A stretch of DNA of 34,358 nucleotides, taken from the NCBI GenBank assembly GCA_020439745.1, contig JAGQSC010000055.1, positions 1 through 34,358 on the forward strand. The letters run 5' to 3'. This document shows positions 18,892 to 33,561 of the stretch, one piece after another. The DNA comes from Acidobacteriota bacterium (GTDB lineage Bacteria > Acidobacteriota > Holophagae > Acanthopleuribacterales > Acanthopleuribacteraceae). How positions within the stretch are numbered: position 1 is the stretch's first letter; each line of letters begins with the position of its first letter. A program made the position numbers and the translations under genes. The notes under the pieces were generated by a model. It ran no database searches, was not told where the DNA came from, and saw only the letters and a list, made by a program, of their open reading frames with translations.

Positions 18892-18917
18892 TCAATGATA
18901 CTTAGATGAGGTGCACA

Positions 18918-20483
18918 TTGAAACGACTCGTTCATGCCCTTCAATTGGGCTTGGTCCTATTCATAGGTGTTACGACAAGTGCGCAGGTCAGGCTGATCGC
19001 ACACATTGCTAACGACTCCGCGCATTTTCGCAATACCCTGGCGGTCGCCAATTTTTCTGACCTAACTCGATCGTACGAACTCTTTGCTTATGACGATCTT
19101 GGCCAACCGATGGGTGGCCTTACGAATCAGATCATTGAGGGTTACACCACAAGGTTTGTCGATGCAACTGATCTCTTTCCCGAACTCCCATCTTATCTTT
19201 TGGTCGAAAGCGATGCCGATGTGGTTGTGAGCATGGGTTACACGTCGACTGATTCAAGTGGAGCCACGGCCCGGGTCCATGAATCGACCCAAACGTCTAA
19301 AGGATGGCGATTGTATCCAAGTAACGGGGCCTCGACTTTTGACGGTCTGGTGGTCTTGAATCTCACTGACAGCATGGCTCAGGTGTCCATCGAGCAAAAA
19401 GACGCGTCTGGTGGGTCATTGGATGCGACATCCCTGCAGGTGTTCCCCGGTCATAAAGAGAAGATGGTCCTCAGTACCTACTTCGATACGGTGGAGAACA
19501 CCTGCTTTGAAGTGATCGCTTCGGAACCTGTTGCGGTAATGGCCTTGACGGGTTCATTACCGGGGATTACGCCAAGCTATCTGTGGGAGAACCCCAGTGT
19601 GGCATTTACGCCGATTGCCGCTGAGGAATGTACGTCAAGTGTGGATCTAGACAGGTCCCGAGGCCCATGTAATGAAACGCTGCCATATTCTCCGCAAGTG
19701 TCCATATCCGTTGATGACGCAAACCGAACCATCACGTCAAATAACATTCCCGATCACCAGGTGGGACTGTTTGGACCGGTCTTTGGCTCATTGAACCCCA
19801 ATGCAATAGCCGAGCAGCATGCCAGCTACACCATAACCGCAAGACCTGAATGGGCTGACGAAATGACGGCCCTTCTGGGTCCCAACGGGCCCACGTATCG
19901 GTTTGGCGTACTATTCAATGGTGTGGAGCTTGATCCTGTGGCGGCCGAGCCCTTCCCCCATGAAGGTGGTTTTATGAACCCAAATGCCAATTGGGCCTGG
20001 AACTTGGAAGCGCTCAATGTTCGTATTGGCTTGGACTGCAACAATGCCCACGTGCAACCCAATGGCAAGTACCACTATCACGGTACACCTGTGTTGTATC
20101 TGCAGGATCTGAACATCAACGACCACGTAATGACCATGATCGGGTATGCCGCAGACGGGTTTCCCATCTATTACAAGTACGCTTACTCCGATGCCAACAA
20201 CCCTAATTCCGCAGTCATTGAAATGACCTCAAGCTATCGACTCAAATCCGGAATCCGACCCGGCGATGGCATCACGGCACCATGTGGAACCTACAACGGT
20301 GTTTATTCTGCAGACTACGAATTTGTCTCGGGTCTCGGAACCCTTGACGAGGCCAATGGCAGGTTTGGTGTGACCCCTGAGTATCCGCAAGGAATCTATT
20401 ACTACGTGATTACAGATGCTTTTCCGTCGATCCCTCGTTACCTGAGGGGCACGCCATCTAGTGACTTCAGGTTGCGGCCATGA
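18918..20483 (+). CDS. Exported YHYH-domain protein with two N-terminal beta-rich repeats
   Basis: About 521 residues with signal peptide (MKRLVHALQLGLVLFIGVTTSAQ). I prefer the TTG at 18918, which has GAGGTG six bases upstream; the ATG at 18906 adds four residues but has no ribosome site. Counting from 18906, residues 28-112 and 132-216 are two copies of an uncharacterised beta-rich module that also occurs in the LRR protein at 25852-29976. Residues about 260-525 are a YHYH domain, named for the YHYH motif at 389-392 (NGKYHYHGTPVLYL), with downstream IGYAADGFPIYY and CGTYNGVYSADYEF. The biochemical activity of YHYH proteins is not known; the His cluster suggests metal binding. Its stop overlaps the next start (ATGA). 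Confidence 0.88.
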   Translation: MKRLVHALQLGLVLFIGVTTSAQVRLIAHIANDSAHFRNTLAVANFSDLTRSYELFAYDDLGQPMGGLTNQIIEGYTTRFVDATDLFPELPSYLLVESDADVVVSMGYTSTDSSGATARVHESTQTSKGWRLYPSNGASTFDGLVVLNLTDSMAQVSIEQKDASGGSLDATSLQVFPGHKEKMVLSTYFDTVENTCFEVIASEPVAVMALTGSLPGITPSYLWENPSVAFTPIAAEECTSSVDLDRSRGPCNETLPYSPQVSISVDDANRTITSNNIPDHQVGLFGPVFGSLNPNAIAEQHASYTITARPEWADEMTALLGPNGPTYRFGVLFNGVELDPVAAEPFPHEGGFMNPNANWAWNLEALNVRIGLDCNNAHVQPNGKYHYHGTPVLYLQDLNINDHVMTMIGYAADGFPIYYKYAYSDANNPNSAVIEMTSSYRLKSGIRPGDGITAPCGTYNGVYSADYEFVSGLGTLDEANGRFGVTPEYPQGIYYYVITDAFPSIPRYLRGTPSSDFRLRP

Positions 20484-20968
20484 AGTGGACCTTTTTCTTT
20501 GCTGTTTTATGGGTGGGCCCGATGGTCCTGGCTCACAACCCCAACGAAGCCTATTTTGAGATTCACGAACAGGACCTGTATGTGGAGATAACGGCTGAAC
20601 TTCCATGGTCCATGAGATATGCGCTCGTTGAATCATTTCCCCTCTTGGAAACGTCCAAGAGCAGAGATGATTTTGATGCCGCCCTGTTCGATTACCTGGC
20701 GGACCGGATTCAATTGTTTGACGCTAAGGGTCAGGCAATGAAACTTGAGTCTGTGGTGGAACAGATTGACGAGCAACGACACAGTCACCAAAACAGCTTT
20801 ACGCTACGCTACCTGAAAACCAATCCCTTAAAACAGGTCGTTAACAGCGTGATGACCGAAATCTACGACACGCAAAAGAACATCCATCTTGTCGAGATAC
20901 AGGGTGAGACCGTCAGGGTGACCACCTCCAAATCCCAACCCAGTTTCGATGTCCCTTCAACCTATTGA
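20480..20968 (+). CDS. Small exported protein coupled to the YHYH gene
   Basis: 162 residues, no family recognised with confidence. A signal peptide ending in VLA is followed by a mature N-terminus HNPNEAYFEI and alternating beta and helical segments (EQDLYVEITAELPWSMRYAL). No cysteines remain in the mature part and no catalytic motif is seen. The start ATG overlaps the YHYH stop as ATGA, so the two products are translationally coupled and probably act together outside the cytoplasm. The beginning of the mature chain recalls small exported proteins that start HxPxxA and accompany HupE-like or YHYH-like proteins, but this is a weak resemblance. No terminator is visible after it. Confidence 0.8.
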   Translation: MKWTFFFAVLWVGPMVLAHNPNEAYFEIHEQDLYVEITAELPWSMRYALVESFPLLETSKSRDDFDAALFDYLADRIQLFDAKGQAMKLESVVEQIDEQRHSHQNSFTLRYLKTNPLKQVVNSVMTEIYDTQKNIHLVEIQGETVRVTTSKSQPSFDVPSTY

Positions 20969-21061
20969 TCCATTGAATTCTATGATCACGGTGTGCGCCA
21001 GGTGTTCACATGGTGCTGCCATATTTTTGGATCCTTTGTTTGGGAACTGTGCAAGGAGGTG

Positions 21062-21090
21062 TGTGTTCAAGGGCATAAACCAAATATAAT
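21062..21090 (+). promoter_or_regulatory. Possible promoter for the hydrolase-methyltransferase gene
   Basis: A perfect -10 hexamer TATAAT at 21085-21090 with only a weak -35 (TGTGTT at 21062-21067, 17-bp spacing). The leader to 21186 would be about 90 bases. The 217-bp gap from 20969 holds no gene. Confidence 0.4.
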
Positions 21091-21185
21091 AAGTGCCATG
21101 CATAAAATTGTGGTGACGGCATTGGTTCGCCTGACGCAATGCGGCATCTAACTTGCCGTGTTCTCGGTCTATGGAGGTAGTACCC

Positions 21186-22913
21186 ATGAATCAATGCACA
21201 TTGAAATCATTCACCAGCTTTGATGGTCAGGCGATTGCCTATAGGCATTGGCCAGCCAGTTCGGACACTGCAGTTATTCTGTTCCACCGAGGCCACGAAC
21301 ATTCTGGGCGAATAGCCCACTTGGTATCGGAACTAGGCGGGCCACATGCCTACTTTGCCTGGGATGCCCGTGGACATGGTCTGTCCCCTACGTCAGAGAA
21401 ATACCTACCCAGCGCGGCGGATTCGGTTCGTGATATCCAGTGTTTTGTGGATCACATCACTCAATCTCACGGAATTCCCGTGTCCAACATGATAATGGTC
21501 GCCCAAAGTGTGGCGGCGGTTCAGGTGGCAGCCTGGCTGCACGACTGCGCGCCTCAGGTCCGTGGCGCAGTTTTGGCGTCTCCTGCATTTGAGATTAAGT
21601 TGTACGTGCCGCTTGCTCGATCTTTCCTGAATCTGTGGTATCGCATCCGTGGAGATTTTGAGGTGAAGAGCTATGTGAAGGCACGGCACCTGACCCGAGA
21701 TATCGCTCGTCAACGTGACTATGAAAACGACCCTCTGATCACGCGTCCGATTTCGGCGAAGTTGTTGCTGGAACTGGACGATATGGCGAAACGAATTGTC
21801 GAGGACGCTGAAGCCATTGATGTACCGGTCCAATTGCTAATCTCGGGCAGGGACTACGTGGTGCGATCACAACCGCAGCACAGGTTCTTCGAAAAGTTGG
21901 GAAGTGCCTTCAAAGAACGTCGTCTATTCTCAGGTCTTTTGCACGATATCTTGGGCGAGCGCGACCGCACTGAAGTTGTGAACCGTGTCCGTATCTTCAT
22001 TGAGCAGTGCTTTGACGTGGAATCCAAGGCCAGTGATCTGACGTCAGCCCATCTGCAGGGATTCACACGTCGCGAAATGGACCGGCTTGAGAGTCCCTCA
22101 ACGGGCTGGCGGCGCTTCTTTTGGGCTTGCAACCGAATCGGCTTGCGACTGGGCAAATACTTATCATCCGGAATCGCCATTGGCTTCCGCAGTGGCTTCG
22201 ATTCGGGTGCCAGTTTGGACTACGTCTATGAAAATCGTCCTTCGGGATTCACGGTACTCGGTCGATGGATCGATCGACTTTACTTGAACGCGATTGGCTG
22301 GCGAGGCATTCGCGCCCGCAAAGTCATGATCGAAGCATTGACCCAAACTACCGCTCAACTATTACGAAGTAAGAACATGCCCATTCGAATCTTGGATATT
22401 GCCGCGGGAGGAGGACGCTATCTGTTGGACCACGCAAAGGAAATTATGCCTGACTATCTGCTGCTCAGAGACGCTTGTCCGCATAACGTCAAGCAGTGCC
22501 AGACCCGCATTCAGGCATCCGGTATGGCTGATTGGGCGCGTGCCGAGCTTGGCGATGCATTTGATCAAGACACAGTGGCTTCGAGTAGCCCTTCACCGAC
22601 GCTTGTGATCGTTTCCGGTCTTTATGAATTGTTTTCCGATAATGAGAAAGTCGCAAAGTCCCTGGCCGGTTGTGCCACTGCCGTCCCGTCCGGCGGGTAT
22701 TTGATCTACACAGGGCAGCCCTGGCACCCACAACTCGAAATGATTGCACGCTGTTTGCCCAATCATCGAGATGGCGGCCCGTGGGTCATGCGCCGCCGTT
22801 CCCAATTGGAGCTCGATCAACTAGTGGAGGCTGCAGGTTTTCGAAAGATCAAACAACACATCGACGATTTCGGAATTTTCTCCGTGTGCCTCGCCGTGCG
22901 CGTAGATGCCTAA
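21186..22913 (+). CDS. Bifunctional alpha/beta hydrolase - SAM-dependent methyltransferase fusion
   Basis: 575 residues, cytoplasmic. The N-terminal half (about 1-275) is a lysophospholipase-like alpha/beta hydrolase with nucleophile S108 in the elbow VAQSVAA, acid D223 (SGRDY) and H253 (LLHDILGE). The elbow lacks the usual glycines (A-Q-S-V-A in place of G-x-S-x-G), a variant also known to me in this fusion family. The C-terminal half (about 300-575) is a class I methyltransferase of the Methyltransf_20 type with SAM loop ILDIAAGGGRY (402-412). GGAGGT precedes the ATG at 21186; longer in-frame starts at 21153 (TTG) and 21171 overlap or precede that site. In proteobacteria the fusion occurs near phospholipid synthesis genes; here no such neighbour exists. 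The substrate is unknown, perhaps lipid. Confidence 0.92.
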   Translation: MNQCTLKSFTSFDGQAIAYRHWPASSDTAVILFHRGHEHSGRIAHLVSELGGPHAYFAWDARGHGLSPTSEKYLPSAADSVRDIQCFVDHITQSHGIPVSNMIMVAQSVAAVQVAAWLHDCAPQVRGAVLASPAFEIKLYVPLARSFLNLWYRIRGDFEVKSYVKARHLTRDIARQRDYENDPLITRPISAKLLLELDDMAKRIVEDAEAIDVPVQLLISGRDYVVRSQPQHRFFEKLGSAFKERRLFSGLLHDILGERDRTEVVNRVRIFIEQCFDVESKASDLTSAHLQGFTRREMDRLESPSTGWRRFFWACNRIGLRLGKYLSSGIAIGFRSGFDSGASLDYVYENRPSGFTVLGRWIDRLYLNAIGWRGIRARKVMIEALTQTTAQLLRSKNMPIRILDIAAGGGRYLLDHAKEIMPDYLLLRDACPHNVKQCQTRIQASGMADWARAELGDAFDQDTVASSSPSPTLVIVSGLYELFSDNEKVAKSLAGCATAVPSGGYLIYTGQPWHPQLEMIARCLPNHRDGGPWVMRRRSQLELDQLVEAAGFRKIKQHIDDFGIFSVCLAVRVDA

Positions 22914-23028
22914 GATGAAGGACACAGGTTCGGCTAATCGAACGCAGCCTGTGATGTTATGTGTGACCTATGTCATCGCAATTTATCGTGCAGAAACCTA
23001 GCTTGAACCCAAAAGGGCGGGGTGTGCG

Positions 23029-25803
23029 TTGCGAGCATTAATAGGGCTAGTTGGAATCATCGGCTGCATTTATAGCGGGGCAACCACGTTTTATGTGTCC
23101 AGCACGGATGGCAGCGATATGAATGACGGATTGACGCCCGCCACACCCTTCGCGACGATCGCTCACGTCAACACGCTCATGCTCATGCCCGGCGATGAGG
23201 TTCTTTTCAAGTGTGGCGACACCTGGCGGGGTCAAATGCTGGAGATCACACGATCGGGGTCCTCGGGCATGCCCATCCGTTTCGGTTCCTATCCCACTTC
23301 AGACTGCAGTGATAAGCCCAGCATCTCTGGTGCCTTCCCGGTCACGGGATGGAGCCCGATCGGTGGCCAGGTCTATGTGGCGGACCTGGATCTGGGTGCC
23401 AACGCAGGGTTGTTCCCGTTGGGTATGAACCAACTGTTCCGAGCAGGCGTCCGATTGGCGCCCGGGCGCTGGCCCAATGCCGATGAAGGCGACGGTGGAT
23501 ACAGCATCATTGAGAGCCAACCGGCATCTAACCGTATTCAGGACAACCAACTTCCGGCCACCAACTGGAACGGCGCATTGGTGCATATCAAGGGCATGCG
23601 TTGGTACATCATCAACCGATTCGTGACATCCACCTCAGGCACCACGCTGGTACTCAATGCCGATAATGGTTGTTGGGCCAACGACTGCACGGATTGGGGC
23701 TATTTTCTGAATAATCATCCGGCCACGCTCGACCGCGATGGCGAGTGGTACTTCGATGCGGCGACGAATCAAGTGCATCTGTATGCGGACGCACCTCCAG
23801 CAGACATGGAAGCGTCAGCGGTTATGGCAAACAACGATGATTTTCGCGGCGGTATCGTGCTTGGTCGGCATCTGCAAGAGCACATTTCCTATGTGATCGT
23901 TGAGAACTTTGAAGTGTCACGATGGGACATGAATGGCATCACCACGCCTACGAACCTGCAGAGCAGTGACAATTTCAATGTCACCATTCAGAACAACTGG
24001 GTTCACGATGTGGACGCCATCGGCATCAACATGCAGACTTGGGTGTGGCAGGCAGCCGTGGGTCCAAACGGTTGGCGGGGTGGCCACAACTTGCTGGTGC
24101 AAAACAACCTGGTTGAGCGGGCGAACCACATCGGCTTGAATAGCTACGCTTATGATTCTGATTTTATCGGCAATACACTTCAAGATATTGGTCTCATAAT
24201 CCTAGCCGGACTCACAGGTATCGGTTGCGGCGATACAAGTTTCGGCGGTTTTTGTACCGAATACGGGGACGGTCTACGCGTGAAAATAGACCAACCTGAC
24301 TATTCGGGGTTTGGTAACTTGATCTCCTGCAATCGTCTGGAACGGATCGGCCATAACGGGATGGATATTTTCGGGTCCGACAATGAACTCAGTCGAAACC
24401 TCATTTACGAGTCCTGCACCAGCAAAGGCGATTGCGGAGCAGTTCGCACCTTTGGGTCGGGAAGTCTGGCGACGTCACCTGTACACGATATCTTGTTGTC
24501 GGAAAACATCATCGTGGATGTCATAGGCAACACCGATGGCAACGCGCCGTTTTTCAAACCGCTTTTTGGAATAGGGCTCTACATCGACCAGTTCTCAGCT
24601 AATGTGACGGCCTCGGGCAATACCATTTCAGGTGCCACGATTGATGGCATTCTGTACCAGAATTCCTCGGGCACGGTTACCGACAACGTGTTGTTCAATA
24701 ACAATGCAGGCACCATGTTCCGCGGACAGATTGGCTTGTACGGATCACCTACCAGGGCATCACTCAGCGGGAACGTGATGGTGGCTCAGCAACCCATCGC
24801 CCGCACCCTCATTGCAGACGGTCTTGTGAATCTGACCGCTTCGAACATGAACTACTTCTTCAATGGGTATGAAGACGCCAACATTGTCGTAGGCAGTGCC
24901 CGTACCTTGGCTCAATGGCAATCGTTCAGTGGGCTGGATGGTCTGTCGGTCGCGAATTGGTATAGCTTGATGCTTCCAGACCCACCCTTGGCCGAGCTAT
25001 TCGTCAACGACACAAAGGACCCCTTAATGGTCAATCTGGGCGGATCGATTTACCTGGACCTGGATCAAAACGCGGTAACGGGTAGCTTTGTCATCCCGCC
25101 CTATAGGTCTCGCGTGTTGGTGCCCCAATTCGTGTGCAATCCCACGGCCACCGTAACGGGAGATGCCACAATATGCTCGGGCGGAAGTGCAACGATTTCG
25201 GTGGCTTTAACCGGAACAGGTCCTTGGGACCTGGTGTGGTCCGATGGCTTCATGCAAATGGGGGTGGGATCTAGTCCGACCATGAGAGTGGTGAATCCGA
25301 TGTCGACAACTACCTATAGTGTGGATCAGATAGACGATAGTCTTTGTACGGGTGTCAGTTCTGGCGCTGCTACGGTGATTGTAGGTGACATGCAACCGCT
25401 GTGGATCGATCCGCCGGCTGCGGCACAAGGTCTTTTCCCGCTCCAATTCACGGCCCGTATTCCCTGTGTGGGCCCCACCTATGGGTGGGAGTGGTTTCAA
25501 AATGGCCTTTCCCAGGTTGTGGATGTGAACCCGTTCACGTTGGCCTCCGTTTTGACGGCACCGGCAACCATCTCGGTGGCGGTGGATCAGGGCGGTCCGC
25601 CATTGACCGCCTCTGCTCTTGTACTGGTGGCCCAACACTTTGCTACCAATGGTGACCTGAATGGAGACGGCTGCAACACGCTTGAAGATCTTTGGCTTCT
25701 GGCCAATGATTGGCGTGAGCCGTCTACAACGGACCCCAATAATGACGGTATCGTGGACGTTCGTGACTTCCTATTCCTCAATACCAACGGTCCATGCCCC
25801 TAG
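23029..25803 (+). CDS. Exported right-handed beta-helix protein with dockerin-like C-terminus
   Basis: 924 residues. The start is TTG at 23029, chosen for the signal peptide (MRALIGLVGIIGCIYSG) and a purine-rich AGGGCGGGG site. The mature chain begins TTFYVSSTDGSDMNDG..TPFATI, the classic opening of parallel beta-helix proteins that act on polysaccharides. Helix coils rich in N, G, D (NNWVHDVDAIGINM, NNLVERANHIGLNSY, SGNTISGATIDGI) occupy about 280-620. An Ig/PKD-like domain follows (about 703-790). The tail has two calcium loops, D876-N878-D880 and D902-N904-D906-D910, arranged as a dockerin type I (DLNGDGCNTLEDLWLLANDW). A polysaccharide lyase or epimerase role is plausible but no catalytic set can be assigned. 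Confidence 0.85.
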   Translation: MRALIGLVGIIGCIYSGATTFYVSSTDGSDMNDGLTPATPFATIAHVNTLMLMPGDEVLFKCGDTWRGQMLEITRSGSSGMPIRFGSYPTSDCSDKPSISGAFPVTGWSPIGGQVYVADLDLGANAGLFPLGMNQLFRAGVRLAPGRWPNADEGDGGYSIIESQPASNRIQDNQLPATNWNGALVHIKGMRWYIINRFVTSTSGTTLVLNADNGCWANDCTDWGYFLNNHPATLDRDGEWYFDAATNQVHLYADAPPADMEASAVMANNDDFRGGIVLGRHLQEHISYVIVENFEVSRWDMNGITTPTNLQSSDNFNVTIQNNWVHDVDAIGINMQTWVWQAAVGPNGWRGGHNLLVQNNLVERANHIGLNSYAYDSDFIGNTLQDIGLIILAGLTGIGCGDTSFGGFCTEYGDGLRVKIDQPDYSGFGNLISCNRLERIGHNGMDIFGSDNELSRNLIYESCTSKGDCGAVRTFGSGSLATSPVHDILLSENIIVDVIGNTDGNAPFFKPLFGIGLYIDQFSANVTASGNTISGATIDGILYQNSSGTVTDNVLFNNNAGTMFRGQIGLYGSPTRASLSGNVMVAQQPIARTLIADGLVNLTASNMNYFFNGYEDANIVVGSARTLAQWQSFSGLDGLSVANWYSLMLPDPPLAELFVNDTKDPLMVNLGGSIYLDLDQNAVTGSFVIPPYRSRVLVPQFVCNPTATVTGDATICSGGSATISVALTGTGPWDLVWSDGFMQMGVGSSPTMRVVNPMSTTTYSVDQIDDSLCTGVSSGAATVIVGDMQPLWIDPPAAAQGLFPLQFTARIPCVGPTYGWEWFQNGLSQVVDVNPFTLASVLTAPATISVAVDQGGPPLTASALVLVAQHFATNGDLNGDGCNTLEDLWLLANDWREPSTTDPNNDGIVDVRDFLFLNTNGPCP

Positions 25804-25851
25804 TTGGGTCAAAGGTGTCCTCAATTCCGATAGCCAGCTACATTTTACGCA

Positions 25852-28800
25852 TTATTTCAACGGGGTAAGAAGTGCACCTCTTTCCGAGTTGTTGGTTGGG
25901 TAGATGGTACGCCTACGCACCATAAGACTTTCGGGATATTCCGCAGAAACGATTGCAACAAACCAGGGTGCCATCGACATGTTGAACCAATCACTAAGCG
26001 TCGATGTGGCGGAACCTGATTCTATGTACAGTTGTTCACTGTGGGTGCTTAATCCAGATGGATCATAAAGAACGATATGGACCATTTGAGCGACATTCGA
26101 TATGAACTCCAAATGATGCTCGCATTCCAAGGCGTTTTCAATGGGGGCGGAAATCCAGTGTTGTGACCATTCACATGGAAGATTGTAGCTTTCTGTTGAT
26201 TCTGGACCGTGATCAAGACGTCTCATGGTGATGGGTAGGTCTGCTAACCACTGATTCGCAGTATTGGCCTCAGAGCGGATTATCTCCGTATTTGCTAGCA
26301 AGGTTTCACCAGGGTTGAGCCAGAAGACTTCGCCTAATCTAGTTAAGGATTCGCTCCGCCCTGTTCGCGTCACCTGAGTTTGAGGTTGAACCATGGTCCA
26401 TTCTGTGAGAGTGTCGCGTGCTGGGAAATCCAAGAATCTTGAAGCGCTTGGTAGGGGGCTTGCGCTGGACCAAAGGCGTGTTTTCGGATTCTCGTTTCCA
26501 TGCAGGACATAAATCCAAATCGGCTGGTCGCTTTCCCAATGCAGTCGTGAAATTGAATCCTCGATGGTTGGGTCCATGATTTGATTCAAAAGGATCACTT
26601 TGTTGTGTCCGCCTACCACAGCTAGCTGGGATGAATCCACGGGGTTGGCCTTCAAATCGAAGAGCACAAAGTCGATGGTGGTTAATTGACTTTGTGGGTT
26701 GACGATCATAAGCCCATTCCAGTAATTGGATTGGGTCCATACAGGTATATCGCCCGTAATTCCTGGCTGATTATTCAATGGGACATCGCAAGCAATTCCG
26801 GAAGCTTTGATTCCAAACGACTGTTGAACTATCAGACGCTCAGGACATCTTAGTTCGATCCATGCGGGTGTGCTTTCCTCGGGTGTCGTCCGTGTGTTCA
26901 TCCACGATCCAATGCCTTCAAGCTGAAGTGTCTCTTCTTTAAGGATGACGCCATTCAGATCGCGTACGACCGCTAATACATCGACAGGAACATCATGGGG
27001 ATTCGCGATGCGATAAGACGTCCACCAACCTGGCGATCTGGGCATGTGGGGAATTGCATACCGATTCTGTTCTATAGTTGTGGGTTCGGGAACCGGCTTT
27101 GGGGGATTGGTCCAAAGGACTAAGTTGTAGGGTCCTGGGCCGGGTTTCTCTAGGCTTATCTCTGTGCAATGGGACCTGTTCTCCTCGTCTTCTTCATGCG
27201 GACCAACCGCAAATTGGTCCTCTAGATAATCTCGGGTGCCACCGCCCCGCCAGGAGACGAGAATCTCATTCTCGGTCTGTCGCGCATGGAGGTGTTGCGG
27301 TGGTTCCGTCGGATCGGAACGCAGACAGGTCCCATCTATGGGTGGATATAGAAACGTTTGGACTAGAATCTCTTCATATGCGCGGCCCAAATAGGTATAA
27401 AACCAATCTCTTTGATCCAGCACTCTTTGGACGGATACGCATGATTCGATGGGATTGTTGGTAACGGTCAGGTATTGGAGATCTGGAAGTTTTGAAACAT
27501 CAGGTACCATTGCCAACGAATTGGCGTCTAAGTAAAGGTATTTTAGGTTCATCCAGTCGAGATTGGGTAATGAGGTCAGGTTATTTCTATCGAGAGAAAG
27601 ATCAGTCAGCTTGTTGAGGTGATTGATTGGTGGGAGGTGAGTAATACGGTTGTCTTGCGCTTTGAGTTGACTTAGGTTGGGTAGCTCGGAGATCTCGCTT
27701 AACCTTTGTAATTGGTTGTCTGAGACGTCCAAGAAACTCAGTTCTGCAAGATGGACGATAGGGGGAAGTTGGATCAGTTGGTTGTTCCTGATTTCCAATC
27801 GTATGAGTTGGGATGGAAGTTCGAGGGATGCACTGCCGAGCTGGTTTTGATTAAGAATGAGAGTTTTCAAAGTGGACGGGAGGTTTGTCAATCGCTTGAG
27901 TTGGTTACGTGATAAGTCGAGCGACCCTAAAGGGACATCGTCGAATTCAGCTTCTTCAAGGATGCTGTCCGTAATGGTCACATCACCCAGATGAGGAAAT
28001 CTCCCACGCGTTTTGAAAACACGTAGCTGCGTGTCCTTCAAAGCCACAAACACGAGATTCCCCAGTACTCCGACCTGATCCAAAGATTGTAGGGGCGTGT
28101 AGCGAACCTGAAGTCGTTCAAGCGAGTTAGGCAAGCTTGGTAAGCTGTTGAAGGCACATTGAGAGATAATGATCTCTTTGATTGGGGGCAATTCGTCAAA
28201 AATCCAGCGATCCATCTCGCCTATCACAAGAAGGTTGAGTCGTCTCGGCATGATAAACGACTGCCACTCTAAGGCGCGTATGGTTAAAGAATCCAGTTCA
28301 ACATCCGAAAGGTCAAGCGAAGCGGGCGCTACATTTTCGATCCACATTGAAAGGCGCGACGTGCGAGGAAGATCGGGCCATGATTCAAGTCGCGTGCTTA
28401 GGAATGAAAGAAAACGAAGGTTGTTCAATCGATTGAGATCTGGCACGTTCACTGGACCCTCCAAACCAATCGATAGATCTATCAAGTTTTCGCAGTGCGT
28501 GATTCCCGTTAGGTCGCGAATGTCGCCATGTTGACGCGTCCGTAGGCTGATCCTTTTCACGTTGAGTGCTTCTTCGTAATCTATTTCACCGTCTTTGTTG
28601 ATGTCTACGAGTTTGACCAAATAGGCTTTGAAGCGCGGATCAGGTATGTAGATGGGCTCTGCTTGACGCTTAGGCGCACGCATTGGAAGTTTATTGATCG
28701 CGCTAAATAATTCGCCTAGTGGGGTAGGGATTGGCTGTGCTGCAGACTGGATCAGGTCCCCATGATCATTTCCCGACGGCATTTGGTTGAACCATACGAC

Positions 28801-29976
28801 TTCGTCATAGTTCAGGGAGGACAATGTCGCTCTGAGTTGACGAAGATCAGATTGAGACCATGGTGGCCCGGTGGAATCTGAATCTTGTGGATAAAAGCCG
28901 AGCTCTTTGATAATTTTGGGCTTTATCGCACCTATTGATGGGGCAATCGTTGCCATTGCATGATCGAGATTCTTTGTAGCGATCTCTATCCGCGTGACAT
29001 CAATAGGACTGCGTGGCACGTAAAAATTGATCCCTGCTCCTTGAACTCGACCTAGTTTTGGGACCTCGCTTAGTTGAGAGGCAAGTTCAGATACCCAATC
29101 TATGAAATCAGGATTGCTGCCGTTGAAAGTAGAAAGGAGTATTCCGCCCGGTCCTTCAAGTTCCACTAATGCATCATTGAATCTACGAAGTGCCCGCCCA
29201 TAGCTATCCGGTGAGACCCTCAGGAAACTGTCAGGTTCATTGCCCAGCACCCAATGAGCGATGATGTTATGGTCTTCACGTTCTCCTGCGGTTATGAGAG
29301 ATGATAGAAACTGTTTGAATTGACCCACTAGGAACTGGGTTAGGGGCGAATCTTGATTGCCAGCGCCCAAGTCGTTCGCGAGTTTGAACCGCGGGTGTTG
29401 GTAAATATCAGTGCCCGTTGTTTGACTGGTTTCACCGGGCCAAGAAGCTGGCCTGTCAGAGACCGATGGACCAATAACCAAAGGGATTAAGACTGGAACC
29501 TGCAATCGTTGCAACAGATGGATGGCATCGGGATGCGCATGACTTCGATAGAGCGTTATCACAGACCCGGCCCGATGAAAGCTCGATTCCGATCTCTTAA
29601 TCAAAGTCGAAGGCGTTGTTGCTTTAACCGCTACAAATTCGCCGCCAATTTCTAGCCAGTCGCCCACCTTTAGGTCTGTATCCAAAGAGACAGACAATTC
29701 TGAATCACCGGGACTCATGCTTTCAAGCAGCGTACCCCTTGTTGATTTCATTTCCCACGCCACACCTCCCAGCACGAGCAAGGTGGGATTGAAGTCTTCA
29801 ATGTGAGCGAGCAGTCCGTTAAGATCCTTATTCCACCATTGGACGGGCGTTTTGCCTTGATCGATCAGCCATTGGTCATATTGCCAAGCTAATTGACGAG
29901 GAAACGCCGCATGCGTGTGAAGCCCATAATTCAGCGATTGTTGCCCTACGCAGAAACACATGATGAATGCAAACAC
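25852..29976 (-). CDS. Giant exported protein: glycosidase-like barrel, EF-hand, leucine-rich repeats and beta-rich repeats
   Basis: 1374 residues. The start is GTG at 29976, with GGAGGTG six bases upstream and a short hydrophobic leader (MFAFIMCFCVG). Residues about 17-425 resemble a clan-A glycoside hydrolase barrel: WVLGNEPD gives putative acid/base E247, and IIKELGFY gives putative nucleophile E358. An insert at about 88-145 looks like a small beta domain. Residues 457-470 (VDINKDGEIDYEEA) form a calcium loop. About 485-850 are irregular leucine-rich repeats with LPxxLxxLxLxxNxL pattern. The C-terminal third carries three beta-rich modules (about 984-1060, 1078-1162, 1272-1360) shared with the YHYH protein. 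Its A+T content seems higher than its neighbours by eye. The beta-helix gene converges on it with a 48-bp gap and no visible terminator. Confidence 0.85.
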   Translation of the reverse strand: MFAFIMCFCVGQQSLNYGLHTHAAFPRQLAWQYDQWLIDQGKTPVQWWNKDLNGLLAHIEDFNPTLLVLGGVAWEMKSTRGTLLESMSPGDSELSVSLDTDLKVGDWLEIGGEFVAVKATTPSTLIKRSESSFHRAGSVITLYRSHAHPDAIHLLQRLQVPVLIPLVIGPSVSDRPASWPGETSQTTGTDIYQHPRFKLANDLGAGNQDSPLTQFLVGQFKQFLSSLITAGEREDHNIIAHWVLGNEPDSFLRVSPDSYGRALRRFNDALVELEGPGGILLSTFNGSNPDFIDWVSELASQLSEVPKLGRVQGAGINFYVPRSPIDVTRIEIATKNLDHAMATIAPSIGAIKPKIIKELGFYPQDSDSTGPPWSQSDLRQLRATLSSLNYDEVVWFNQMPSGNDHGDLIQSAAQPIPTPLGELFSAINKLPMRAPKRQAEPIYIPDPRFKAYLVKLVDINKDGEIDYEEALNVKRISLRTRQHGDIRDLTGITHCENLIDLSIGLEGPVNVPDLNRLNNLRFLSFLSTRLESWPDLPRTSRLSMWIENVAPASLDLSDVELDSLTIRALEWQSFIMPRRLNLLVIGEMDRWIFDELPPIKEIIISQCAFNSLPSLPNSLERLQVRYTPLQSLDQVGVLGNLVFVALKDTQLRVFKTRGRFPHLGDVTITDSILEEAEFDDVPLGSLDLSRNQLKRLTNLPSTLKTLILNQNQLGSASLELPSQLIRLEIRNNQLIQLPPIVHLAELSFLDVSDNQLQRLSEISELPNLSQLKAQDNRITHLPPINHLNKLTDLSLDRNNLTSLPNLDWMNLKYLYLDANSLAMVPDVSKLPDLQYLTVTNNPIESCVSVQRVLDQRDWFYTYLGRAYEEILVQTFLYPPIDGTCLRSDPTEPPQHLHARQTENEILVSWRGGGTRDYLEDQFAVGPHEEDEENRSHCTEISLEKPGPGPYNLVLWTNPPKPVPEPTTIEQNRYAIPHMPRSPGWWTSYRIANPHDVPVDVLAVVRDLNGVILKEETLQLEGIGSWMNTRTTPEESTPAWIELRCPERLIVQQSFGIKASGIACDVPLNNQPGITGDIPVWTQSNYWNGLMIVNPQSQLTTIDFVLFDLKANPVDSSQLAVVGGHNKVILLNQIMDPTIEDSISRLHWESDQPIWIYVLHGNENPKTRLWSSASPLPSASRFLDFPARDTLTEWTMVQPQTQVTRTGRSESLTRLGEVFWLNPGETLLANTEIIRSEANTANQWLADLPITMRRLDHGPESTESYNLPCEWSQHWISAPIENALECEHHLEFISNVAQMVHIVLYDPSGLSTHSEQLYIESGSATSTLSDWFNMSMAPWFVAIVSAEYPESLMVRRRTIYPTNNSERGALLTPLK

Positions 29977-30128: not shown

Positions 30129-32150
30129 TCAGTTTTGGATATTCGTGATGGTCAGTGTTTCGCCCTGCCAGAGGAAACACACGGAGCCAAGGGCCAGGAT
30201 TTCACGCAGCTCGGGGTATTTGGCCAGCAGTTCGAAATAGGCTTTGCTGGCGAACGTGATGGACTTTGCCCGTTGAGGATCTGCACCCGACTCCTGCCAG
30301 AGCGGACCTTGACGGGTGAACATCTTGCCGCCGATCCATTTGATTTCGCCCATGGGCTCCGGTTCCATGGAATAGCTGGAATCGGTAATGCTGGCCATTT
30401 CTTCGCTGGCCATCACACTGGCTTCGCCACTCTTTTGCGAAAGATTTCTAAACCTGTCTTCGGACTGATGTCGGATTGTTGGGGCAGAGGCCACGGGCAT
30501 GTCGTCTTCCAAAACCAGAAAACTGGTGTAAGGCGTGATGATGCCCCAGGTTTTGGCCAGACGCTTCACCTCGTCAATGAGTTCCCCTTGCTCGCCGTTC
30601 AGCCTGATTTGGTCCAGCAAGAACCCAACCCGGCGTTGCGCCCAAATTTTTGGGATATGGATGGATTGGACGCCACGGTCGGGTAGCACAATCTGAATGC
30701 GTTGCTTCACCTTTTTGCCTTCCACCATGCCTTCAAGGGTCAAGGCGGCTTTGCCTGTGCCCTGGTATCGGGCGAGCACTTGTAAATCTTGTCCATGAAA
30801 TAGATCGGGCAGGCGCTCTGGTGTGGTTTCCATCAGGCGCATTCCGGATGCGTTGATCTGGAGCTGGGTCATGACGGGTGCCTGGATTTTTGCGAAAAGC
30901 GCCGAAACCTTTACTTCCAGATCTTCTTCAGGTCGAACGTACGTGCGACTGCCGTGCTCGCTCATGCGGTCCAGTAGATGGGTATTCACATCAAAGCCCA
31001 CGCCTACCGAAAAGACACGTCGCTGGTCACTGGCCACCAGTGCGGTCAATTTGGATTCGTCTTGATTGCCGATGGTCGGTTTACCGTCGGTGATGAATAG
31101 GATCATTTGTACGCGGTCATTGGCCGGGCTCAAGGACTGGGTCGATTCCAAAGCCGCCTGAATATTGGTGCCACCCAAGGCTTGAAACTGATCGACAAAA
31201 GTGACTGCGTTCTTGAGGTTGGTTGGTTCAGCAGGCATCCAGTCTGACCCAAGAGGTTCCGATTCGGTGGAGAAGCGGACCACTTGGAAGCGGTCTTGAG
31301 GCTTCAACGCGCCCAGGCAGAATCGCAGGGCTGCTTGGGCCTGTTCCAGCTTGGCGCCTAACATACTGCCCGAGGTGTCGACCACAAAGGCAATGTCTTT
31401 GGGATGCGTTCGCTCTGTGGTTTTCAAGGTGGGTGGCACAATGCGCAACATCACCCAGCCTTCTCGGCCATCTACAGTGTGGAACTGAGCGCCCAATCCG
31501 GTTTGCGTGTCTTTGGGCGTGAAGACGAGTTCGACATCGCCACTCCATGTGGTTGCGTCAAAGGTCATGCCAGCGGGTGTGTCCTGCTGGTTGAGTTTGT
31601 GAGTGCCACTGCCGAGCCAACCCGACTCGGTAGTGCCGTGCAGCTTGAATTGATTGGGTTGCGCGTTCAGAGGAAGGCGGTAGGTGTACAACCCGTTGTC
31701 TTGATCGATGAGCTGTTGCAGTTGAATGGTGAGCACGCGTTCGGAGTGGGGTTCGATGGGGAAAATACGCGCTTGGATCATCTGATTCCCTGCATATGAA
31801 ACCAGAGCGGGATCCTTGGTGCGACGAACGATTTCCTCGTAAATGTCGCGCGCCTTGTTCGCATCCAGCAGTTCGGCTGGTGTGGCGACGCCGTTGATGT
31901 CCAGGGTCACCCGCGACACGGTGGATGCGGATGGAATGGGACACAGGAACGTGCCTTCCAAGCGCGAACCGTTGGGATTGTAGAAGTGGAGGGTGAGCAG
32001 CGTTTCGGCGGTGTGCTGATCCATTTGAACGTTCACATCCAGTGCCGACAGGACCATGGGCTGCAATTGGGGCATGCGGGGGATGGGGTCGATAATGATG
32101 TGCTGGGCAAACAGCGAGAGGGGAAACAGGATGCTGAACAGGGATCGCAT
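30129..32150 (-). CDS. Exported VIT and VWA domain protein
   Basis: 673 residues with signal peptide MRSLFSILFPLSLFA. A VIT domain (about 25-155, with FYNPNGSRLEGTFLCPIP and ANKARDIYEEIVRRTKDPAL) is followed by a VWA domain (about 250-420). Its metal site is complete: DTSGSM at 258-263, a downstream GGTN threonine, and FITDGKP. This pairing is that of inter-alpha-trypsin-inhibitor heavy chains and bacterial relatives, which bind proteins through a divalent metal. The C-terminal 200 residues include an AKTWGIITPYTSFLVLE segment typical of the family. No sorting signal or membrane anchor is present. The Shine-Dalgarno AAGGAG overlaps the TAA stop of the upstream VWA gene, so the two form a tight operon. 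Confidence 0.93.
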   Translation of the reverse strand: MRSLFSILFPLSLFAQHIIIDPIPRMPQLQPMVLSALDVNVQMDQHTAETLLTLHFYNPNGSRLEGTFLCPIPSASTVSRVTLDINGVATPAELLDANKARDIYEEIVRRTKDPALVSYAGNQMIQARIFPIEPHSERVLTIQLQQLIDQDNGLYTYRLPLNAQPNQFKLHGTTESGWLGSGTHKLNQQDTPAGMTFDATTWSGDVELVFTPKDTQTGLGAQFHTVDGREGWVMLRIVPPTLKTTERTHPKDIAFVVDTSGSMLGAKLEQAQAALRFCLGALKPQDRFQVVRFSTESEPLGSDWMPAEPTNLKNAVTFVDQFQALGGTNIQAALESTQSLSPANDRVQMILFITDGKPTIGNQDESKLTALVASDQRRVFSVGVGFDVNTHLLDRMSEHGSRTYVRPEEDLEVKVSALFAKIQAPVMTQLQINASGMRLMETTPERLPDLFHGQDLQVLARYQGTGKAALTLEGMVEGKKVKQRIQIVLPDRGVQSIHIPKIWAQRRVGFLLDQIRLNGEQGELIDEVKRLAKTWGIITPYTSFLVLEDDMPVASAPTIRHQSEDRFRNLSQKSGEASVMASEEMASITDSSYSMEPEPMGEIKWIGGKMFTRQGPLWQESGADPQRAKSITFASKAYFELLAKYPELREILALGSVCFLWQGETLTITNIQN

Positions 32151-32159
32151 AACGGCTCC

Positions 32160-33251
32160 TTACTGATTGAACTGGTACTGCTTGGTTCGAAGCTGTTGTC
32201 GGATGGCTTCGCGCAATTTGGCTTCCAGGCTATCCGTGACTTCCGGCTGGTTTTGTTTGATGAAGGCTTCCCGTTGTTTGGCAACCTCAGCCAGCTCCGC
32301 TTGAATGCGGGTTCGGTCGGCGCTGGCCTTGTCCACAGCAGCCTTGCGTTCTTCAGCGGAAAGTCCCTGCAAGGGTTCAGGCAACGCCTCCTCTTCCATG
32401 GTTTCCACTTCCACATCGCCACTGGCCACGGCGTCCACCAGGTCCCAGTCCTCGTTTTTGTAGAGTGACGTTGCTTTGCTGACGCTGCGTTGTACGGCGG
32501 CAGCAGGGGCTTCGGCTGCGGCGGTTCGGTCTTGGGCCCGTTGTCGCTTTTGCGAGGCCTCGCCTGCCGCGCCGTAGGCGAGATAGGTTTGGTTCAGTTC
32601 GGTATTGAGTTGCAGGATGCGGTCGTCAAAAGGTGTGGCGATAGCCACATCAGTGCGGTCCTGGTCAATGCAGGCATACTGGCCATCGGCCAGATCGGCA
32701 CCCTCCTTCCAAAACCCTTGAACACCTTCCTGGAAGGGGCCGCAGTGAATGGTGTTCACTACAATTCCCTTAGCAATGGAGGCTTTGCAGGCTGCTCGAA
32801 AATCGTAACTGCCCTGATTGAAGGGTTCGTTTCCGGCAATAAAAATGGCTTTGTAGCTGCCGGGCTGAGTGGACCAGGCCAGCTTTTGAACGGCATCGGC
32901 AATCACCACGCCACAATATTCCTCGCCACCGTTGGTGGACAATTGATGTAGTGCCTCGGACACGCGATCCAGGTCCGTGGTCAGTGCCAGTACCTGGCGG
33001 ACATACCCCTGCTGACTGGAAAGGCCGCTGTTACCGTATTCGAACAGTGCGACTTCAAGCGTGGGTGCAACGCCGTGACGACGTGCGGTGGCGAGGTCGT
33101 TCACGATGGTCCAAAGCTGGGTTTTGGCCTGGTGGATCAATCCGTCCATGCTGTTGGAGGTATCCAGTAGCAAGGCGATCTGAACGCGTGCGTCTTTTGT
33201 CTGGCCAAAGGCAAGTACGGTCAACAAACTGGCAAAGAATATTCGTTTCAT
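32160..33251 (-). CDS. Exported VWA domain protein, first gene of the VWA pair
   Basis: 363 residues from the ATG at 33251, chosen for the AAGGAG site and the signal peptide MKRIFFASLLTVLAFG; an upstream in-frame start adds 16 residues with no such support. The VWA domain (about 22-225) has a metal site DTSNS at 30-34 and later NGGEEYCGVVI and AIFIAGNEPFNQG. The C-terminal part (about 235-363) is Ala/Glu/Gln/Arg-rich and mostly helical, ending in a likely coiled coil. The two VWA products are probably co-expressed and may interact, but neither has an assigned partner or target. The function is unknown. Confidence 0.9.
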   Translation of the reverse strand: MKRIFFASLLTVLAFGQTKDARVQIALLLDTSNSMDGLIHQAKTQLWTIVNDLATARRHGVAPTLEVALFEYGNSGLSSQQGYVRQVLALTTDLDRVSEALHQLSTNGGEEYCGVVIADAVQKLAWSTQPGSYKAIFIAGNEPFNQGSYDFRAACKASIAKGIVVNTIHCGPFQEGVQGFWKEGADLADGQYACIDQDRTDVAIATPFDDRILQLNTELNQTYLAYGAAGEASQKRQRAQDRTAAAEAPAAAVQRSVSKATSLYKNEDWDLVDAVASGDVEVETMEEEALPEPLQGLSAEERKAAVDKASADRTRIQAELAEVAKQREAFIKQNQPEVTDSLEAKLREAIRQQLRTKQYQFNQ

Positions 33252-33561
33252 GGTGGGCTCCTTTATCATCGAACGACTGGGAGACGCCACCCCCACCAAA
33301 AGGTTTCACCTTGATGTTCACTCCGTTTGGCAGCCCACCGATTACCGAAAGGCAGCTCCCAAAATTCCCCTCCACCGGAGATAGAGTCTGGCGCAGCCAG
33401 ACGGGGTGGTCCTGAAGATGGTTCGTTCTGATGAAAATCCTAGGTGAAGTCGCCATTTTCGTAATGTTCAGACTCGAACAAGAAGATAAGGCGCAGAGGC
33501 AAGGAGAGGCCGCAAGGCCGATTGGCCCGGCAGCCCACCCCGACCAAAGCGAGGATAGTCA
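33252..33561. other. 310-bp intergenic region with inverted and direct repeats
   Basis: No gene is supported here. It holds the likely promoter region of the VWA operon (minus) and the 3' flank of the broken reductase gene. Three repeats stand out: GTCTGGC-GCA-GCCAGAC (33386-33402), GGCC-GCAA-GGCC (33509-33520, a GNRA-type hairpin), and an 11-bp direct repeat GGCAGCCCACC at 33329-33339 and 33530-33540. The composition (mixed purine runs around 33478-33510) is unlike the neighbouring genes and could be a dispersed repeat element. Confidence 0.45.

Follow-up and report, generated by a model that had tools for sequence, protein, structure and literature searches.

Is a repeated module common to two exported proteins that otherwise show no relation, and if so, what is that module and what might it do? 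The question is raised by a 34,358-nucleotide stretch of DNA (the window), which covers one contig in full, from a 5.1-Mb genome of the Acanthopleuribacteraceae (Acidobacteriota). One of the two proteins carries a YHYH domain (residues 308-515; PF14240, E 6.9e-61 in Pfam) and the other carries leucine-rich repeats (LRR_4, E 4.9e-12 in Pfam). A preliminary description had aligned five segments by eye, two in the YHYH protein (Y1 and Y2) and three in the LRR protein (L1, L2 and L3), as copies of an uncharacterised beta-rich repeat, and suggested that this may be a lineage-specific surface-adhesion or export module (Table 1).

Evidence for a shared module

The coordinates and motifs given earlier for the five segments were correct. 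When the segments were aligned pairwise, Y2-L2 alone was clear (z 8.4), Y1-Y2 was marginal (z 2.2) and the remaining pairs scored at chance; alignment by eye alone would therefore not prove a module. A five-row profile of the segments found 74 matches at E ≤ 1 in the genome and, iterated over the retrieved open frames, 115 domains in 49 proteins, with zero matches to reversed sequences used as decoys. To avoid circularity, a leave-window-out profile was made from 108 copies from outside the window, with E-values scaled to 5,000 proteins. It recovered four of the five segments (Y1, Y2, L1 and L2; Table 1) and had zero matches among 1,550 shuffled sequences, so that these four withstood the profile comparison on which the by-eye alignment had been left to stand or fall.

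The fifth segment, L3 (LRR protein residues ~1272-1360 in the by-eye alignment, ~1276-1364 in Table 1), scored 4.4 bits (E 10) with the leave-window-out profile at the 5,000-protein scale, and 9.7 bits in the correct register when scored alone. It lies 198 residues after L2, i.e., 2 × 99 and the expected repeat spacing, and its strand order is similar to that of the other modules in a low-confidence model of the LRR protein C-terminus. Since the spacing corresponds to two repeats but the proteome-scale E-value is 10, L3 is a probable, unproven fifth copy, and the five copies claimed become four recognised by profile and one that is probable on weaker support. The gap from L2 to L3 may hold another, degenerate module, although the profiles give no support there and the stretch is disordered in the model (pLDDT 26-32).

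Table 1. Proteins and modules in the window (positions in nucleotides of the window; residues are those of the protein named).
Feature	Position	Strand	Basis or remark
YHYH protein, 525 aa, exported	18906..20483	+	ORF; module dyad at N-terminus, then YHYH domain
Module Y1, dyad position 1 of YHYH protein	18981..19247	+	leave-window-out profile E 1.7e-13
Module Y2, dyad position 2 of YHYH protein	19296..19562	+	leave-window-out profile E 5e-14; model resembles TM1070/ASRT
LRR protein, 1374 aa	25852..29976	-	ORF; leucine-rich repeats ~650-850, modules within final 400 residues
Module L1, LRR protein residues 970-1056	26809..27069	-	leave-window-out profile E 2.1e-10
Module L2, LRR protein residues 1075-1163	26488..26754	-	leave-window-out profile E 2.2e-8; model resembles ASRT/TM1070
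Possible degenerate module in the L2-L3 gap, LRR protein residues ~1177-1262	26191..26448	-	repeat spacing alone
Probable module L3, LRR protein residues ~1276-1364	25885..26151	-	repeat spacing; weak profile score

Fold and superfamily

The first lead to a fold came from a search of the profile against the PDB, which matched the Anabaena sensory rhodopsin transducer (ASRT; 2ii7, E 0.013) over 66 columns, i.e., most of the module. An IgA Fc receptor match (E 0.0086) was set aside, as its 37 columns took in no more than a generic beta hairpin. Comparison of the module profile with three ASRT proteins of the phylum using hhalign gave a probability of 77.5 and E 1.9e-5, against E 0.1 for the reversed profile and E 1.2 for the best of 150 column permutations.

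In an AlphaFold2 model of the YHYH dyad (pLDDT 84.4, pTM 0.81), seven strands and a short helix were assigned per module, and the order and spacing of strands were identical in Y1 and Y2. In a VIA-align comparison of Y2 from this model, the ASRT/TM1070 entries, five among the matches listed, ranked above all others (Z 10.2-10.6, against 7.5 for the next row). L2, searched separately, placed the same five first (Z 11.8-12.4; next 7.0); the model of the LRR protein C-terminus is poor overall (pLDDT 49) and moderate to good for L2, the only part used (blocks 66-84), and the Y2 and L2 models share some alignment rows and so are not wholly independent tests. By these matches, both models have the ASRT topology, which in the superfamily is an eight-stranded beta-sandwich. 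Foldseek, run on the tandem model, ordered XepA, GH2 enzymes and others first by E-value at TM-scores of 0.2-0.3, and ASRT was absent among the 50 best matches listed. These TM-scores are low because two modules were aligned at once, and the Foldseek order was set aside since VIA-align resolved single modules.

Fold comparison thus agreed with the profiles for Y2 and L2, and the earlier claim of one beta-rich repeat common to both exported proteins, unrelated in other respects, holds, given the leave-out E-values and the same fold match from both. A reading in which chance or convergence makes five unrelated pieces of beta-sandwich look alike fits the many pairwise comparisons at chance and the weakness of L3, but it is scarcely credible and is already refuted for Y1, Y2, L1 and L2, though not for L3, by the significant leave-out E-values, the decoys without matches and the fold match common to both proteins.

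ASRT belongs to the ASRAH (Anabaena sensory rhodopsin transducer homology) superfamily, which was defined by De Souza, Iyer and Aravind in 2009 and predicted from context to bind sugars (PMC2739507). The hallmark Asn closing strand 2 is present in 110 of 113 module copies. Another hallmark, a Trp starting strand 1, seems to be kept only in part: by a crude positional count the strand-1 region has Trp in 31/113 copies and any aromatic in 102/113. Because profile-profile comparison and the two model comparisons agree, we place the module in this superfamily; on models and sequence profiles, it appears to belong there as a secreted member.

The closest structures are those of the ASRT family itself (PF07100; PDB 1nc7, TM1070, and 2ii7), which lead the structural matches of Y2 and L2 by 3-5 Z units, share the near-invariant Asn, and can be aligned with the module from strand 2 through the last strands. 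ASRT proteins, however, are intracellular, single-domain and tetrameric and carry SHExxCxxN, whereas the modules are secreted, tandem and fused to other exported domains. The signature is absent from the modules: where ASRT has the His, they mostly have W/F and otherwise other residues, and where it has the Cys, they mostly have Ala/Val; by these features they fall outside the ASRT family proper.

Standard annotation passes the module by. No copy in the genome was above the cut-off for PF07100, with sub-threshold matches in 2 of 43 copies, and none reached the curated cut-off of 26.2 bits for PF18986 (DUF5719), which gave 21 sub-threshold matches (best 21.7 bits). DUF5719 is nevertheless the best Pfam match of single modules (9/43 copies, all sub-threshold, best E 5.3e-5; E 0.0016 for Y2), and such a match may extend over both modules of a dyad, as at residues 31-161 of L067; DUF5719 may be the actinobacterial ASRAH family. 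The description "uncharacterised" therefore applies to these modules as far as Pfam cut-offs go, but not to their fold and superfamily, which are known (PDB 1nc7, 2ii7; PMC2739507). The founding paper makes no mention of Acidobacteriota (PMC2739507), and a term search of the comparative genomics paper on Acanthopleuribacteraceae found no mention of the module. In the collection of papers searched, no other paper appeared relevant by title for ASRAH and none was returned for DUF5719. The copies described here look like an undescribed secreted family within a known superfamily, a highly expanded branch in Acidobacteriota on which the founding paper is silent.

Copy number, cassettes and partner domains

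At least 142 copies at E ≤ 0.001 were found in about 65 distinct open frames of the host genome using a 43-row profile, with 150 of 213 candidates profile-scored. Across the class, genomes of the host family and of one other family have between 24 and at least 130 copies each, and none of 25 genomes of a third family has the module. It was present in 38 of 149 Acidobacteriota genomes sampled from the phylum, often with few copies each, and plasmid records contained none at E 0.01. A closely related module pair occurs in Acanthopleuribacter pedis, Sulfidibacter corallicola and MAGs of Holophagae and Acidobacteriota. The module is thus more widespread than the term "lineage-specific" allowed; what holds of that term is an expansion that is extreme in the host family and one sister family.

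Successive copies are spaced at about 100-110 residues and mostly form tandem dyads or tetrads, and 42 of 49 proteins have two, three or four detected copies, an arrangement also seen in secreted ASRAH proteins. Where three copies were detected, the gap in most cases turned out to hold a fourth that has diverged (hhalign E 1.2e-12). The two positions of a pair are distinct types, since the nearest neighbour of a module in another protein shared its pair position 74 times out of 82, and the pair therefore seems, on sequence, to be inherited as a hetero-dyad. Many cassettes either follow the signal peptide directly or close the protein at its C-terminus, where about 16-26 residues remain as a tail. 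By a crude measure, 41/49 module proteins have a hydrophobic N-terminus compared with 46/80 other frames, and 3/49 have a lipobox-like motif.

The partners of these cassettes include peptidases (S8, S41, M4, M12B and M23), PNGase F, glucose/sorbosone dehydrogenase (GSDH), copper monooxygenase and transglutaminase, as well as GH114-like, beta-lactamase-fold, DM13, PKD, Ig and VWA-like domains, FG-GAP, VPS10 and PD40 propellers, and LRR. The secreted ASRAH families described in 2009, fused or lipid-anchored, comprise amidase-fused tetrads of Chloroflexi and lipoprotein dyads of Actinobacteria (PMC2739507). The present modules resemble these in being secreted, in forming dyads or tetrads and in their domain fusions, but their copy number and partner variety are far larger, their partners are not chiefly amidases and the lipobox-like motif is rare.

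Possible role of the cassette

The ASRT cleft is lined by the His and the Cys of the SHExxCxxN strand, and both contact ethanediol in 1nc7 (PMC2739507). The signature His (TM1070 H25) is aligned by hhalign with the module position seven residues before the conserved Asn, where Trp is found in 51 and Phe in 13 of 113 copies. In 95/113 copies, either position -7 is aromatic or His, or position -8 is aromatic; the first (type A) modules often have no aromatic at -7 and one at -8 instead. Aromatics in beta-sandwich clefts often stack on sugars, as in carbohydrate-binding modules. Given such aromatics at the ASRT His position, we favour a glycan- or surface-binding accessory domain as the most likely role. 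By a narrow balance of judgement, we take the module to be an interchangeable, secreted ASRAH-superfamily cassette that probably binds glycans and localises its partner. Its fold and domain architecture are computational results, whereas the cleft, the ligand and the localising function are inferences.

Such a cassette might work as follows. Two or four modules would pack like ASRT subunits, and each would have a cleft on one sheet, its floor formed by strand 2 with the near-invariant Asn at its end. The aromatic often found on this strand could contribute to the binding of a sugar or of some other small surface ligand. Once bound, the cassette would tether its partner, be it an enzyme or a recognition domain, to the envelope of the cell itself or to glycans of a host or substrate. 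To our knowledge, secreted ASRAH domains have no known ligand, and sugar binding is a prediction within the superfamily itself. Against a glycan role, many partners (PKD, VWA-like and propellers) do not imply glycans, SHExxCxxN is lacking and the -7 aromatic is often missing from type A modules. Of the earlier proposal, surface adhesion or binding is plausible, and export finds no support because copies sit near the N-terminus in some proteins and near the C-terminus in others, and most of these proteins already possess a hydrophobic N-terminus.

A bolder version is possible but doubtful: that this large undescribed ASRAH family is the general secretome targeting module of the Acanthopleuribacteraceae and their sister family, with aromatic-pocket hetero-dyads and tetrads that bind animal-host or self-surface glycans and so place dozens of enzymes.

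We consider it rather unlikely that the ASRAH-fold modules are stalk or spacer units with no ligand of their own, serving to hold catalytic or recognition domains out from the cell surface. Tandem repeats at a constant spacing, cassettes at protein ends and the frequent company of PKD and Ig-like domains, themselves typical spacers, are all consistent with this, but there are usually just two or four copies rather than long arrays, and neither distinct types at the two pair positions nor aromatics kept at non-core positions of strand 2 would be expected of plain spacers. Less probable still, and in our view improbable, is a secretion or outer-membrane retention tag read by a lineage-specific export or surface-attachment machine. 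The attachment of one cassette to many unrelated exported proteins of a single genome, often at the extreme C-terminus with a short tail, does resemble the reach of a sorting domain; however, the cassette also occurs N-terminally, directly behind the signal peptide, a place not expected of a terminal sorting signal. In addition, copies are few in several unrelated families of Acidobacteriota, and sorting domains are normally single-copy per protein.

The module is missed by standard databases at their thresholds, yet it is among the most repeated extracellular modules of a lineage whose members include Acanthopleuribacter pedis, isolated from a chiton, and Sulfidibacter corallicola, isolated from a coral. 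With a name for the module, the ends of about 65 frames in a genome can be annotated together and linked to a superfamily for which structures have been solved and a ligand cleft predicted. It extends the ASRAH superfamily well past the families described in 2009 and provides a testable hypothesis on how these bacteria may position their peptidases and deglycosylases.

Distribution of the module within the class

The presence/absence boundary of the module between family f2 and the other two sampled families of the class is sharp. Among the relatives' genomes sampled, the module was absent from all those of f2 (25 of 25), and the other two families carry dozens of copies.

Neighbouring genes and calcium-loop patterns

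The gene downstream of the YHYH gene encodes a DUF6702 protein, and a 4-base overlap between the two suggests that they form one operon. Of the two adjacent exported VWA proteins, one is a VIT-VWA protein and the other a VWA protein with DUF1194-like similarity.

Features of the window
Feature	Position	Strand
DUF6702 protein gene	20480-20968	+
Beta-helix protein	23029-25803	+
LRR protein	25852-29976	-
Two exported VWA proteins	30129-33299	-

The N-terminal domain of the LRR protein, labelled a glycosidase in the preliminary description, was without a Pfam match. Between this domain and the leucine-rich repeats lies an EF-hand/dockerin-like loop (DINKDGEIDYEEA; residues 455-469; EF-hand E 0.058). 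The beta-helix protein ends in a C-terminal double calcium-loop pattern, which is dockerin-like (GDLNGDGCNTLEDLWLLANDW...DPNNDGIVDVRDFLFLN), and had no dockerin match in Pfam at 1e-3.

Fusion to a PNGase F-like enzyme

Elsewhere in the same genome, at locus L067 (2176-3831), a module dyad is followed by a fused PNGase F-like peptide N-glycosidase, and this enzyme is a handy partner for probing glycan targeting.
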